This document shows positions 12,281-46,336 of a stretch of DNA of 64,000 nucleotides, in pieces. This DNA comes from Bacteriovorax sp. BSW11_IV. Lineage in GTDB: Bacteria > Bdellovibrionota > Bacteriovoracia > Bacteriovoracales > Bacteriovoracaceae. Below the pieces are notes generated by a model. It was not told the origin of the DNA. It saw nothing but the letters and a program-made list of their open reading frames with translations, and searched no databases. Within the stretch, counting starts at the first letter, position 1, and the number at the start of each line of letters is the position of its first letter. The DNA lies in the NCBI RefSeq assembly GCF_000447755.1, contig NZ_AUNE01000011.1, positions 1 to 64,000 on the forward strand. The letters run 5' to 3'. The translations under genes were made by a program, and so were the position numbers.

Positions 12281-13747
12281 AGCTTTTTTCATTTTAAAAT
12301 AGTTAGAAGCTAGTTTCGTGGCCCCTTCACTCATATGAGAAAAGCTTAAAAGGCGATCATTGAGTTCCCAATGCATTTCTCTTTTGTAACATAGAAGCTC
12401 TCTTGTTGAAGCTTTTAGATGATCTTCATTTTTTATAAACTCACTAAATAACAGGGCCGCAAGATCTTCTTTCTTACGAGAGAGGGCCTCCCAGTAGGCC
12501 TTAGTCATTGTTTTGAAATAAATAGGCCCAACTTTGGATTCAAAAAACGTCGTGTCCATATTGGGAAGAATTGCATCTTTTAAAAAACTCGTCGCAATAT
12601 CTTCACCTTCATAAGAAAAGTACAGAACAATTCGCCCTAGATCAAAGAGCATGCTCTCTAAGGCGACAGTTTGATGTTTTTTAGAAGCGATTTGGGCATA
12701 ATGTAAAAAGCTTCTGGTTGCAAAATGTATATGCTGGCCGTCCGTCGGAATAAGCTCAATGGCAAGCCGATAGTAGTAACTTAAGGTCTGGATTTTTTCA
12801 TAATTTTCTTGATCGATGGCATTTCTAAAAAGAGCATTGAGGGTCATAAGATGCAACTCGACAACATTATCTCTTTTTTGTTCGATGGCCTCATCTAGTG
12901 TTTCAAGTATTTTTTCACAATAAAAAGGAATGACATCATTTTGATTACTGGAAAGCCCATTGAGAATTTTTGTAAGCCTTCCAATAAAATAGGCCTCTGG
13001 CCAATCTTTTTCTTTTTCGAGATAGAATCGTGCTTCTTGAGTCATTCCAGGGACAAAGAAAGGCTCATAAAGACGCCATGTACTTTTCTCATTGTTGTAA
13101 TTATGAATAAGGTGAGTGACGACCTCGTAAGACTCGCTTAGAACAAGAAGCAAGAGTCCTTTGTCATTTCGCTGGGCGGCCGTATAGGCCATGTTAGAGA
13201 GGACTTCAAAGCTGTGAAAGGTACTCGACTTATAATCGTAGTCCACTTTCTTGTCTCTTATAATAGATAATCGTGAAATAATTTGTTTTCTTAAAATGGG
13301 TAAAAAGAAAGTTGGCTTTATAAATTGGCTAACGTAGTACAAATAAGGAATAATTCCACCCACTGCCAGAATACAAAAAATAAATGAGGTAACATACAAA
13401 ACCTTAGACCAAATATTGTGATGTGGAACGAGCCCCCCTAATATAATGGTGAGATTCGCGAGAAGAATAAAACCCATGCCAAGAATTGTTAAAGGATGTT
13501 CTACAAAAATTTTCGCAAGCCTTGGGGTGTAGAGGTTTGATGTTAGAGTAATTATGAGCGCCATGGAGGTCAAAAGGGCCCCAAAGAAGCCGTTGAGAAT
13601 CCTACTTGTGGCATTGATCCCAATTACGGCATTATTATCACTTCCATTATTTGAAATGATAAAGAATACGCCAAAGCTTATGGCAAAAAACAATATGATT
13701 AGGGGCGTGAATCTGTATAGAAGATTCGCGGTCCATTTTTCTTTCAT
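12275..13747 (-). CDS. DUF2254 family membrane protein
   Basis: About 490 residues. Four hydrophobic helices occupy roughly the first 140 residues, including TLTSNLYTPRLAKIF, the conserved block of DUF2254 proteins. The rest is a large soluble helical domain. The function of the family is unknown. I prefer ATG 13747 (MKEKW) to the upstream TTG 13756; both follow the PH-like gene within 12 bases, so the two genes form an operon. The protein probably sits in the inner membrane with a cytoplasmic C-terminal domain. Confidence 0.75.
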   Translation of the reverse strand: MKEKWTANLLYRFTPLIILFFAISFGVFFIISNNGSDNNAVIGINATSRILNGFFGALLTSMALIITLTSNLYTPRLAKIFVEHPLTILGMGFILLANLTIILGGLVPHHNIWSKVLYVTSFIFCILAVGGIIPYLYYVSQFIKPTFFLPILRKQIISRLSIIRDKKVDYDYKSSTFHSFEVLSNMAYTAAQRNDKGLLLLVLSESYEVVTHLIHNYNNEKSTWRLYEPFFVPGMTQEARFYLEKEKDWPEAYFIGRLTKILNGLSSNQNDVIPFYCEKILETLDEAIEQKRDNVVELHLMTLNALFRNAIDQENYEKIQTLSYYYRLAIELIPTDGQHIHFATRSFLHYAQIASKKHQTVALESMLFDLGRIVLYFSYEGEDIATSFLKDAILPNMDTTFFESKVGPIYFKTMTKAYWEALSRKKEDLAALLFSEFIKNEDHLKASTRELLCYKREMHWELNDRLLSFSHMSEGATKLASNYFKMKKAS

Positions 13748-42058: not shown

Positions 42059-43168
42059 GTGGCCGAACAATATTTTACCCTCAAGAAAACAGCAGAGATG
42101 TTTGGTGGCCTGCATCTCAAGGAGAGAATTGAGGAACTTGAAGAACAAGGCGTTCTTCCAGAATCAAAGCGATTTCGCTCAGGTGCCCTTTTTCGCAAAG
42201 GTTGGGACGTTAATGAAATGCCCCTTATTGGTGAAAAGCTAGGTTATTTTAAAAAGTTTGATAGGCCTCTTGCCATTTCTGTTTTTACAACAAAAGGTGG
42301 GGTTTTAAAAAGTACTCTTGCACTAAATATAGCCCGTACAGCGGCCTTGCACGGACATAAGGTTTGTGTTGTTGGCCTTGATATCCAAGGTGACGTAACT
42401 ACGGCCCTAGGATTTGAAAATGATCTAGATAATCAACAAGATCTGCTAGAAGTCATTGAGAAGTTAAATAGAACAAAAGGTCTTTCGGACTTTTTCAATA
42501 ATCAAGTTCGTTTAAGTGAAACAATTAGACCGACAGATCTTTCTAATTTATTTCTTATTCCTGAAACTCCAGAACTTGTTGCTTTAAATGATTCTTTAAG
42601 CAATATCAATCGTCGTGAGTTTTGGTTGAAAGAAAAGGTAATCGATGCCCTTAAAGAGCACTTTGATCTTGTTGTTATGGACTGTTCTCCAAACTGGAAT
42701 AAGCTAACAACAAATGCTCTTGTTGCTTGTGATATTTTAGTGTCACCGCTTGAGTGTAAGATTAACAATTTTAGAAATTTCAAAGTCTTTAGACATTTTT
42801 TGAAAGAATTCAAAGATGAGATGAGACTAGGCTTTGAAAATATTTTTATTCCTACTCGTTATACAAAAAATAGAAAATTATCATTAGATATTCTTGAGTG
42901 GTACCGCGCTAATGTAGAAGGTTGTACAGAGCACGGTGTTCGTGAAAATATCTCTGGTGAAGAAGCGACGGCCCTAAATCTTTCCCTCAATGAACACGTT
43001 CCAGGTCAGGAAGTGGCAAAAGAAATGAGAGAACTTCTAAAAGAAGTACACGGTCGCATTGTCAATTATTGTGAGTTTTTGCAAAATAGACACGTTCAGG
43101 ATAATGATCAAGCATTTAATTACGTGCCGCCCAAAGGTGAGGCACAAAGAAATTCTTGGATGTACTAA
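42059..43168 (+). CDS. ParA-like ATPase with N-terminal DNA-binding-like domain and variant Walker A
   Basis: The 369-residue protein starts at GTG after TAGGAG. Residues 1-60 look like a MerR/HTH-type module (FTLKKTAEMFGGLHLKERIEELEEQG). The ParA core follows: KGGVLKSTLALN (79-90), GLDIQGDVTTALGF, VVMDCSPNWNKLTTNAL. Leu83 replaces the Gly of the usual KGGxGK[ST]. It is 15 bases upstream of a 120-residue partner gene. No parB and no other chromosome-origin gene are near, so it is probably an orphan ParA used for positioning of another cargo. Confidence 0.85.
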   Translation: MAEQYFTLKKTAEMFGGLHLKERIEELEEQGVLPESKRFRSGALFRKGWDVNEMPLIGEKLGYFKKFDRPLAISVFTTKGGVLKSTLALNIARTAALHGHKVCVVGLDIQGDVTTALGFENDLDNQQDLLEVIEKLNRTKGLSDFFNNQVRLSETIRPTDLSNLFLIPETPELVALNDSLSNINRREFWLKEKVIDALKEHFDLVVMDCSPNWNKLTTNALVACDILVSPLECKINNFRNFKVFRHFLKEFKDEMRLGFENIFIPTRYTKNRKLSLDILEWYRANVEGCTEHGVRENISGEEATALNLSLNEHVPGQEVAKEMRELLKEVHGRIVNYCEFLQNRHVQDNDQAFNYVPPKGEAQRNSWMY

Positions 43169-43183
43169 TACCGAGGAAATGAT

Positions 43184-43546
43184 ATGGCCTTAAGTTTAGG
43201 TGATATTCAAAAACATAGTGAAAAGGGCCGTGCTACTCGCACGGAACTTAAAGAGCGCGTTCTTAGACCTTGGGAGACATTCGACCAAAGGGGTTTACAG
43301 ACGCGCACCAATCAAGCTCAAGAGGCCGTTAAAAGGGCCCGAGAAATTGTTGAGAAGAATAATCTCATGGTCGATCGCTTACGAGAGGGCCATGTAAATG
43401 AAGAAGTAGTTAAAAATATTGAGTTTTCCCATGAGGAACGTATGAAGCGTTTTGAGGATGAGGCAACAGAATTTATTGTCGCCCCCATTCAAGTCCAAAA
43501 GGGAAAGGGATTATTTTCATTAATCAGAGATGTTTTTACTCCTTAA
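43184..43546 (+). CDS. Small helical protein paired with the ParA-like ATPase
   Basis: The 120-residue protein is highly charged and mostly helical (residues about 35-90, NQAQEAVKRAREIVEKNNLMVDRL), probably a coiled coil. It has no recognised domain and is not ParB-like. ATG 43184 has GAGG upstream and lies 15 bases after the ParA-like stop, so it may be the ATPase's adaptor or cargo-linking partner (inference). A hairpin with T-run follows. Confidence 0.65.
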   Translation: MALSLGDIQKHSEKGRATRTELKERVLRPWETFDQRGLQTRTNQAQEAVKRAREIVEKNNLMVDRLREGHVNEEVVKNIEFSHEERMKRFEDEATEFIVAPIQVQKGKGLFSLIRDVFTP

Positions 43547-43583
43547 TGCCATTAATTCTTGAAAATTTAACAGCTTAGTGTAG

Positions 43584-43609
43584 AACCTCACATAATGTGA
43601 GGTTTTTTT
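43584..43609 (+). terminator. Terminator-like hairpin abutting the rapA start codon and containing its ribosome binding site
   Basis: AACCTCACA (43584-43592), loop TAA, and TGTGAGGTT (43596-43604) form a nine-base perfect stem followed by TTTTT and then ATG 43610. The only ribosome-binding-like sequence for rapA, GAGG at 43599-43602, lies inside the 3' arm, seven bases before the ATG. The element can both stop transcription from the ParA operon and mask rapA translation. Confidence 0.75.
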
Positions 43610-46336
43610 ATGCAAGAATTTAAGTCTGGGCAACGCTGGATTAGCGAGGCCGAACCTGAATTGGGATTAGGTATTATTACTGATGTCCAATCTAAAATGT
43701 TAGTTGTTGAATTTCGCTCATCACAAACACACCGCTCTTATGGAATAAAGACGGCCCCTTTAAAAAGAGTTGTTTTTAAAGAAGGCGAAGTCATTCATCA
43801 CGGCGAACAAAATGAAAAACTAAATGTCGTTGAAGTAAAAGAAGTCGATGGGCTTTTTACCTATGTGACAGAAAGTGGAGAAATTCACGAATCTGATATT
43901 TCACATCATATTAGTTTCAATAAACCTCATGAAAAATTATACAATGGGCTTATTTCAACAAATGATCATTTCAAATTAAGAATTGAAACTTTGAAACATG
44001 TTGAGAGCTATGAAGGAAGTGATGTTAAAGGTCTTATTGGTGGTCGTATGTCACTTCTTCCTCATCAGTTCTATGTGGCCAAGAAAATTTTAAAAGAGCC
44101 TCTACCAAGAGTTCTACTTGCTGATGAAGTGGGACTAGGAAAGACAATCGAAGCAGGTCTTTGTATTCAAAATTTACTTAAAACAGGCCGTGCTTCAAGG
44201 GTTCTTGTTTTAGTTCCTGATTCACTTGTTTATCAATGGTTCTTAGAGATGAGAAGAAAATTTAATCTCTCATTTGCGACAGTGAATCAAGAAACTCATA
44301 TCGAAGAGGGAATGAATCCATTTTTTGACAATGAACTTGTTGTTGCCAGTCTCGATCTTTTAAGAGGAGCACAAAAGGCCAGAGACTTTTTAAATGTTTC
44401 TGACTTTGATGTTCTTGTTGTTGACGAGGCCCACCAATTAAAGTGGACTAAAGAAGGACCTGATCTTGCCTTCTCAATCGTTGAAGAAGTGGCCAAGAGA
44501 GTGCCTATGGTCTTTTTGTTAACGGCCACTCCTGAGCAATTAGGACAAACAGGACACTTTGCTCGACTAAAGCTTTTAGATGGCAATAGATTCTATGATT
44601 ACAAGGCCTTTAAAAAAGAGTCTGAGCACTTTCATGAAATTGCACAGATCACTAAAGCAATTCTTTCAAATACAGCTTTGTCACCTGAACATAGTGCCTT
44701 GTTAACAGATTTAGGCGTTGATCAATCAAAAGATAAAGAAGAAATCCTGTCAGATCTATTAGATCGTCACGGAACAGGAAGAATTCTTTTTAGAAATTCA
44801 AGGGCCAACCTTGCTGGAGATTATGACTTCTTTCCAAAGAGAATGCTGAAGGGTCATGCCATGAATGCAAAGACAGAAGGCTCTTACAAAGAAGTTGGAT
44901 TAATTGATGGGCTTTTCTATGAGAAGGCCATGTGGCTTTGTGAGTTCTTGCAAAAAAATAACGATAAAGTTTTATTGATTTGTAAGTCTAAGTCTAAAGT
45001 TATTGAGTTAGAAAAATTCTTAAGAGAAAACGTCTCTAGTATTAAAACAGGTGTTTTTCACTCTGATCTTTCCTTAATGGCCCGTGATAGAGGTGCCGCT
45101 TACTTTGCTGACAAAGATGGTGCACAAGTTCTTCTATGTACTGAAATTGGTAGTGAAGGGCGAAATTTTGAATTCTGTCACCATCTCGTATTATTTGATC
45201 TCCCGATTTCTGTTGACCTTCTTGAACAGAGAATTGGTCGTCTCGATAGAATTGGTCAAAAATTTGATATTAATATCCACGTACCATACGGGGTGGGAAG
45301 CTATGAAGAAGTTCTTTATCGCTGGTATCATGAAGGTTTAAATGCCTTTGAGAAAAACTGTAAAGTTGGTTTAGAAGTTCTTTCAAATGTAAGAGAAGAT
45401 CTGATCAATGCTCTTGAAGGTAATGGGAATCTTGATGAACTGATTGGTAGAACTTGTGAAATTTCTTCTGAGCTTGAAAAGAAACTTGAAGAGGGAAGAG
45501 ACCAGCTAATTGAGTACAATTCATACAATCACGATGAAGCTTTTAAAATGATCGCAAAATTGAAGGCCTGCGATAAAGATCATTCACTCCAAGATTATTT
45601 AGAAAGTGTTTTTCATCACCTCGGTGTGGATTCTGAAGATCTAGATCCTTTTACAACATATATTCATCCAAGTGATAATATGCTTCTGCCACATTTTCCT
45701 ACCCTCGATAGTGACGGTAAGAGAATGACTTTTGAAAGATCAATTGCACTTTCAAGAGAAGATGTGGAGTTCATGAGCTGGGACCATCCAATGGTGTCAG
45801 GGGTTATTGAACTTATTTTAAGTGAGGGTGTTGGGAATATGTGTGTGGCCCAACGTAAAGGGGGAAAATCAACAGGTAAGGTCTACCTTGAGTGCTTCTT
45901 TGCTCTTCGTTCATTAACTAGAAGAGGATTGGATACTGCAAAATATCTTCCAACCCAAACGATTCGTGTATTAATCAACCCGCAAGGTGAAGTGTTCACT
46001 GATAAGTGGTCAAAAGATATGCTAGATGATCTTGTTGAAGATGCTAGTGCAGATAATAAGAAAAAGGCCATGGGCTTTCCTCGCGATAAGGTTGAAACCG
46101 TATTAGAGAAAGCAAGAATGATTGCTGAAGGTGAAGCAAATAGTGCTATAGCAAATGCAAAAGAGTGCGCCATGAAAGAGCTTGGAAACGAGATTCAAAG
46201 GTTAGAAAATTTGAAAAAACTCAATCCAAGTGTTAGAGACTCTGAAATTGAGTTTTTGAAATCGAATTTACATGAGACTTTAGAGTTGATTGGAAAGTCG
46301 GAAATTACTTTCGATTCACTAAGAATTATTATTTAA
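43610..46336 (+). CDS. rapA: RNA polymerase-associated SNF2-family ATPase RapA-like
   Basis: The 908-residue protein has an N-terminal RapA-type Tudor-like start (GQRWISEAEPELGLGIITDV). Swi2/Snf2 motifs follow: I LLADEVGLGKTIEAGL, Ia VLVLVPDSLVYQW, II VVDEAHQL, III LLTATPEQLG, and C-terminal VI LLEQRIGRLDRIGQ. A long Glu/Lys-rich RapA-specific C-terminus completes it. E. coli RapA has 968 residues. It recycles stalled RNA polymerase. The start is hidden in a hairpin. Its stop overlaps a convergent lipoprotein gene by eight bases. Confidence 0.92.
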   Translation: MQEFKSGQRWISEAEPELGLGIITDVQSKMLVVEFRSSQTHRSYGIKTAPLKRVVFKEGEVIHHGEQNEKLNVVEVKEVDGLFTYVTESGEIHESDISHHISFNKPHEKLYNGLISTNDHFKLRIETLKHVESYEGSDVKGLIGGRMSLLPHQFYVAKKILKEPLPRVLLADEVGLGKTIEAGLCIQNLLKTGRASRVLVLVPDSLVYQWFLEMRRKFNLSFATVNQETHIEEGMNPFFDNELVVASLDLLRGAQKARDFLNVSDFDVLVVDEAHQLKWTKEGPDLAFSIVEEVAKRVPMVFLLTATPEQLGQTGHFARLKLLDGNRFYDYKAFKKESEHFHEIAQITKAILSNTALSPEHSALLTDLGVDQSKDKEEILSDLLDRHGTGRILFRNSRANLAGDYDFFPKRMLKGHAMNAKTEGSYKEVGLIDGLFYEKAMWLCEFLQKNNDKVLLICKSKSKVIELEKFLRENVSSIKTGVFHSDLSLMARDRGAAYFADKDGAQVLLCTEIGSEGRNFEFCHHLVLFDLPISVDLLEQRIGRLDRIGQKFDINIHVPYGVGSYEEVLYRWYHEGLNAFEKNCKVGLEVLSNVREDLINALEGNGNLDELIGRTCEISSELEKKLEEGRDQLIEYNSYNHDEAFKMIAKLKACDKDHSLQDYLESVFHHLGVDSEDLDPFTTYIHPSDNMLLPHFPTLDSDGKRMTFERSIALSREDVEFMSWDHPMVSGVIELILSEGVGNMCVAQRKGGKSTGKVYLECFFALRSLTRRGLDTAKYLPTQTIRVLINPQGEVFTDKWSKDMLDDLVEDASADNKKKAMGFPRDKVETVLEKARMIAEGEANSAIANAKECAMKELGNEIQRLENLKKLNPSVRDSEIEFLKSNLHETLELIGKSEITFDSLRIII

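Follow-up and report, generated by a model that had tools for sequence, protein, structure and literature searches.

A terminator-like hairpin overlapping the ribosome binding site of rapA in Bacteriovorax sp. BSW11_IV

The rapA start and the hairpin in front of it

The window analysed here is a 64,000-nucleotide stretch of Bacteriovorax sp. BSW11_IV (contig NZ_AUNE01000011.1, positions 1 to 64,000), in which rapA lies downstream of an operon containing a ParA-like ATPase gene and a gene for a 120-amino-acid protein (Table 1). Judged by its protein match, the 908-codon frame is a genuine RapA gene with ATG 43610 as its true start, since it matches the RapA model, the frame offers no alternative start further upstream and the protein's N-terminus (..GQRWISEAEPELGLG) is conserved. 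The 120-amino-acid protein (43184-43543) accompanies a ParA-like gene in many genomes of this bacterial family. A literature search on rapA regulation in this bacterial group gave nothing useful.

Table 1. Features at the boundary between the parA-like operon and rapA (window coordinates).
Feature	Position	Strand	Evidence
ParA-like ATPase gene, 369 aa, first in upstream operon	42059-43168	+	Pfam AAA_31 E 7.8e-31; 82% identical in same-genus genome G001
120-aa gene, directly after parA-like gene; stop codon 43544-43546	43184-43546	+	no family match
Predicted sigma-70 promoter TTAACA-18-CATAAT	43567-43596	+	10/12 matches; predicted start ~43602-43604
Hairpin 5' arm AACCTCACA	43584-43592	+	read from sequence, RNA fold
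Hairpin loop TAA	43593-43595	+	read from sequence, RNA fold
Hairpin 3' arm TGTGAGGTT	43596-43604	+	read from sequence, RNA fold
GAGG, rapA Shine-Dalgarno, within 3' arm	43599-43602	+	sequence; 7 nt 5' of ATG
T7 run (U-tract of the terminator-like hairpin; also spacer before the start codon)	43603-43609	+	sequence
rapA, 908 aa	43610-46336	+	NCBIfam RapA equivalog NF003426 E 3.2e-294; Pfam RapA_C E 7.5e-108

A perfect 9-bp stem followed by TTTTT (43605-43609) immediately precedes rapA, the T run abutting the ATG and comprising seven residues when counted from the last G-C pair. No second Shine-Dalgarno (SD) sequence lies within reach of the ATG besides the GAGG in the 3' arm. Hairpin, T run, SD position and correct start codon are directly visible in the letters, confirming what a sequence-only reading of this DNA had described, i.e. 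a nine-base stem and T run ending at the rapA ATG and enclosing the only plausible SD. RNA folding extended the hairpin to 11 pairs by adding A-U and G-U pairs and gave an energy of -13.3 kcal/mol, compared with -3.33 +/- 2.08 kcal/mol for dinucleotide shuffles (z -4.8; reached by 0 of 200), while the 94-nt fold around it gave a z of -2.2. The hairpin combines the attributes of an intrinsic terminator (a stable G-C containing stem, a loop of 3-8 nt and an adjoining T run) and is missing from the list of our simple terminator scan, which probably counts part of the T run as stem. We also observed an 8-base perfect complement between AATTCTTG (43554-43561, coordinates to within one base) and CAAGAATT (43613-43620), a pairing that, in the fold predicted for read-through RNA, flanks the hairpin and would enclose the start codon of rapA.

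Relatives and genomic background

The sequence-only reading had proposed a compact switch that could couple RapA level to transcription state, with stem-preserving substitutions in relatives as a check. The only same-genus genome compared (G001) preserves the order parA-like gene, 120-aa gene, rapA (RapA 63% identical) but has a terminator of unrelated sequence, GGGGGCCAGTAGGCCCTC-TTTTTT, at the end of the 120-aa gene; a 120-nt gap separates this gene from rapA, whose SD (GAGGG) lies outside any strong hairpin. Three more distant genomes (G003, G023 and G027) contain the same genes followed by a small ORF and then rapA, and no terminator of such kind was seen in them between the 120-aa gene and rapA, while a scan of named genomes returned distant RapA proteins only (at most 43% identical). 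The stem was absent at rapA in G001 and in every other relative examined, so covariation at this site cannot support a RapA switch, and, with nothing conserved there, selection for SD masking is unsupported. The G001 terminator differs in position and sequence, so what the two species have in common is a terminator at the operon's end, whereas an SD hidden at rapA is not shared.

These comparisons bear on a dual attenuator, in which transcripts would begin upstream and a signal (translation, a protein or a small RNA) would set termination and ribosome binding site (RBS) access together. We consider such a device unlikely: the SD does sit in the 3' arm, ideally spaced from the ATG, and the extra helix predicted to surround the start codon of read-through transcripts would suit it, but the pairing is unconserved at rapA in G001 and the other relatives examined, neither an antiterminator partner nor a ligand domain was found in the 94-nt fold or the Rfam search, and Rfam 15 returned no family over its gathering cut-off at the hairpin nor a convincing weaker one (only GcvB, at 19.6 bits against a cut-off of 42). 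On these grounds, and given the frequency of comparably buried starts in this genome (see below), the proposed switch is not supported.

In an 835-kb sample of the same genome with crude ORF-based gene calls, a stem plus T-run criterion yielded 106 intergenic terminators of mean energy -14.3 kcal/mol, 30% of them weaker than the rapA hairpin, the flanks folded differing slightly from those used for the latter. The rapA hairpin resembles these other intrinsic terminators in shape and energy. Thirty-five precede a co-directional gene, at distances of 6, 7, 15, 19, 20, 28, 46 nt and upwards (rapA being at 7). Another alternative is a plain terminator whose overlap with the SD is coincidental; rapA would then depend on termination being incomplete, or on ribosomes and RNA polymerase keeping the hairpin partly open. 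Several counts are in its favour: 2 of the 35 co-directional terminators end no more than 10 nt from the next start, which fits a smooth spread of distances; an SD-like word occurs in the 3' arm of 23 of the 106 (22%); and the opening energy of the rapA start region (13.4 kcal/mol; mean 6.7, sd 3.5) ranks 33rd among 702 genes, placing its burial in the top 5% and therefore not making it unique, as an RBS buried this deeply is common to about 5% of genes here. Against coincidence, both closest terminators have the SD in the arm, the one at distance 6 being GGCCCTCTAAACGGAGGGCC-TTTTTT-ATG before a 101-aa ORF, and the SD is likewise buried in a hairpin at the ATG in at least two other genes. The latter are a 337-aa YkuD-like ORF and a 563-aa ORF (secreted-protein names assigned by reading, not by family search), where the hairpins have a shorter T run and the SD again in the 3' arm. 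Together with a conserved case elsewhere in the bacterial family, described below, these genes leave us rather doubtful of a coincidental overlap.

Besides rapA, three genes of this genome with the SD in a hairpin 3' arm abutting the ATG were recorded, at L160:6862-7167, L168 (minus strand, 12662-13675) and L171 (minus strand, 822-2513). The YkuD-like gene has no homologue in G001. A second in-genome match to the pattern (C45:218836) was discarded as a terminator between convergent genes, with its ATG there by chance.

A candidate promoter and a conserved parallel

The candidate promoter TTAACA-18-CATAAT was the sole sigma-70 match of at least 9/12 on the + strand when the 120-aa gene and the following gap were scanned, and only 0.9% of gap shuffles scored 10/12. 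Sites of this quality occurred in 29 of 691 upstream regions, where shuffles predict 8.2 and the opposite strand has 9; their frequency was 4.2% upstream of genes versus 0.3% mid-gene. By these counts they are real signals in this genome, and TTAACA-18-CATAAT is a likely rapA promoter. The other genes of this genome found to have a hairpin on their start show no match of at least 9/12 there. The CATAAT box reaches from the 5' arm across the loop to the first base of the 3' arm. With the predicted promoter overlapping the hairpin in this way, an mRNA started from it would be without the 5' arm and could not form the structure. A transcription start between hairpin and ATG in all conditions had been named as a result that would speak against the switch; the predicted promoter, overlapping the hairpin, comes close to this, its start being a prediction. 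Because that start would fall at or beyond the GAGG, rapA mRNA made from it would retain at most a remnant of the SD, leaving the presence of the SD without explanation; this loss of most of the SD is the weakest part of the model. The -10 box is moreover read out of a palindrome, which may mimic such a box.

The same near-perfect 21-bp palindrome over the predicted -10 box might instead be a protein-binding operator of the rapA promoter, and not an RNA structure, a reading we regard as highly improbable. The one-sided T7 fits a terminator, the CCTCAC..GTGAGG core occurs once more in this genome and once in G001, and no other near copy of the palindrome is present in the genome at up to three mismatches, an absence for which the operator was rejected.

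A pattern search in 129 genomes of the family led to a gene that appears, by protein likeness as read and not by family search, to encode an acyl-CoA carboxylase carboxyltransferase-like protein. In 17 genomes, including that of BSW11_IV, this gene is preceded by a CCTCC-stem, a loop with TAAAAT, TAGAAT or TATATT, a stem-GGAGG and the ATG, with a T run between stem-GGAGG and ATG in most of them. The -10-like box lies exactly 17 nt after TAGCCT (or a variant) in all 17 genomes and 12-14 nt before GGAGG; the constant 17-nt spacer fits a promoter whose -10 element would lie in the loop. Compensatory stem changes occur between genera, and among nine representatives pairing of the inner stem was 6.1 of 8 within genomes compared with 4.9 between genomes (permutation p 0.002, ignoring relatedness). 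An RNA started from such a promoter would have its 5' end at the margin of the 3' arm and leave the SD free. These hairpins are found at L200-L217 and L219; the copy in BSW11_IV itself (before G000:C22:16780) has a weaker stem and lacks the T run. Across the family the pattern was more frequent with ATG (58) than with a GTA control (20), an enrichment that we set aside as mostly no evidence by itself, because many of these ATGs are not gene starts and, in any case, GAGG followed by ATG is simply an SD with its start codon. In another family member, an rplJ-like gene (L137) has CCTCCAAAGCAAAAGGAGG-TTTTTT-ATG upstream, an SD-containing terminator-like hairpin for which no Rfam match was obtained.

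A probable boundary between two genes and its known relatives

The explanation we favour, to which we give about an even chance, is that the element acts as intrinsic terminator of the parA-like/120-aa operon, as RBS mask for read-through RNA and as part of a rapA promoter overlapping the hairpin. Transcripts of the upstream operon would be stopped at the hairpin and T7, those reading through would have the rapA SD hidden in the stem, and stop and masking together would insulate rapA from the upstream operon. The gene itself would be transcribed from the promoter with CATAAT across the loop, giving, if the predicted start is used, an almost leaderless mRNA with about 6-8 nt before the ATG. This explanation is supported by the likeness to the genome's other terminators, by the terminator that ends the same operon in G001, at a different position and with a different sequence, by the promoter counts given above and by the like arrangement before the carboxyltransferase gene. 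What survives of the sequence-only reading is thus the terminator shape that transcripts of the ParA-like operon would meet and the SD held in the stem on read-through, and not a switch that tunes RapA; as the hairpin is not conserved at rapA in relatives, a compact boundary between two genes appears more likely than a dedicated RapA switch.

If this is true, two neighbours would be insulated at the levels of transcription and translation within about 45 bases while the downstream gene retained its own expression, and rapA would have lost its link to an upstream operon that, in more distant relatives, adjoins it without a terminator. More tentatively, the family may repeatedly build a composite inverted repeat that combines an upstream terminator, a read-through RBS mask and a downstream -10 box in the loop, restricting translation to transcripts that begin within it; rapA would be a recent case without conservation, and the carboxyltransferase gene a conserved one, a generalization that we think possible but short of probable. 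The conserved carboxyltransferase copy makes the insulation idea testable.

Compared with intrinsic (Rho-independent) terminators in general, the rapA hairpin has the usual G-C containing stem, short loop, U run and an energy in the normal range, but it ends at the start codon of the next gene and contains its SD. In the transposase genes of IS10 and IS50, a fold-back hairpin hides the RBS in outside transcripts only, as the genes' own promoter starts inside it. The rapA arrangement may be alike, as the SD would be hidden in entering transcripts and the candidate promoter would place rapA's own start inside the hairpin, and differs in that the hairpin is also terminator-like; rapA is not part of an insertion sequence or other mobile element, being a gene whose order with the parA-like gene is kept in relatives. 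In the dual attenuator of pT181 repC, an SD in the 3' half of the terminator can give both transcription and translation control (PMC5435934). At rapA, too, the SD falls within the 3' half of a terminator-like hairpin beside the start codon, whereas neither an antisense RNA nor an antiterminator, nor a regulated leader, was found there. Unlike the rplJ (L10) leader attenuators (PMC4538822), the rapA hairpin is not known to carry an L10 binding motif and has no Rfam match, the likeness to them lying in the SD-containing terminator-like hairpin before the rplJ-like gene of the family member mentioned above. The rapA hairpin is a compact example of an already known kind of overlap.
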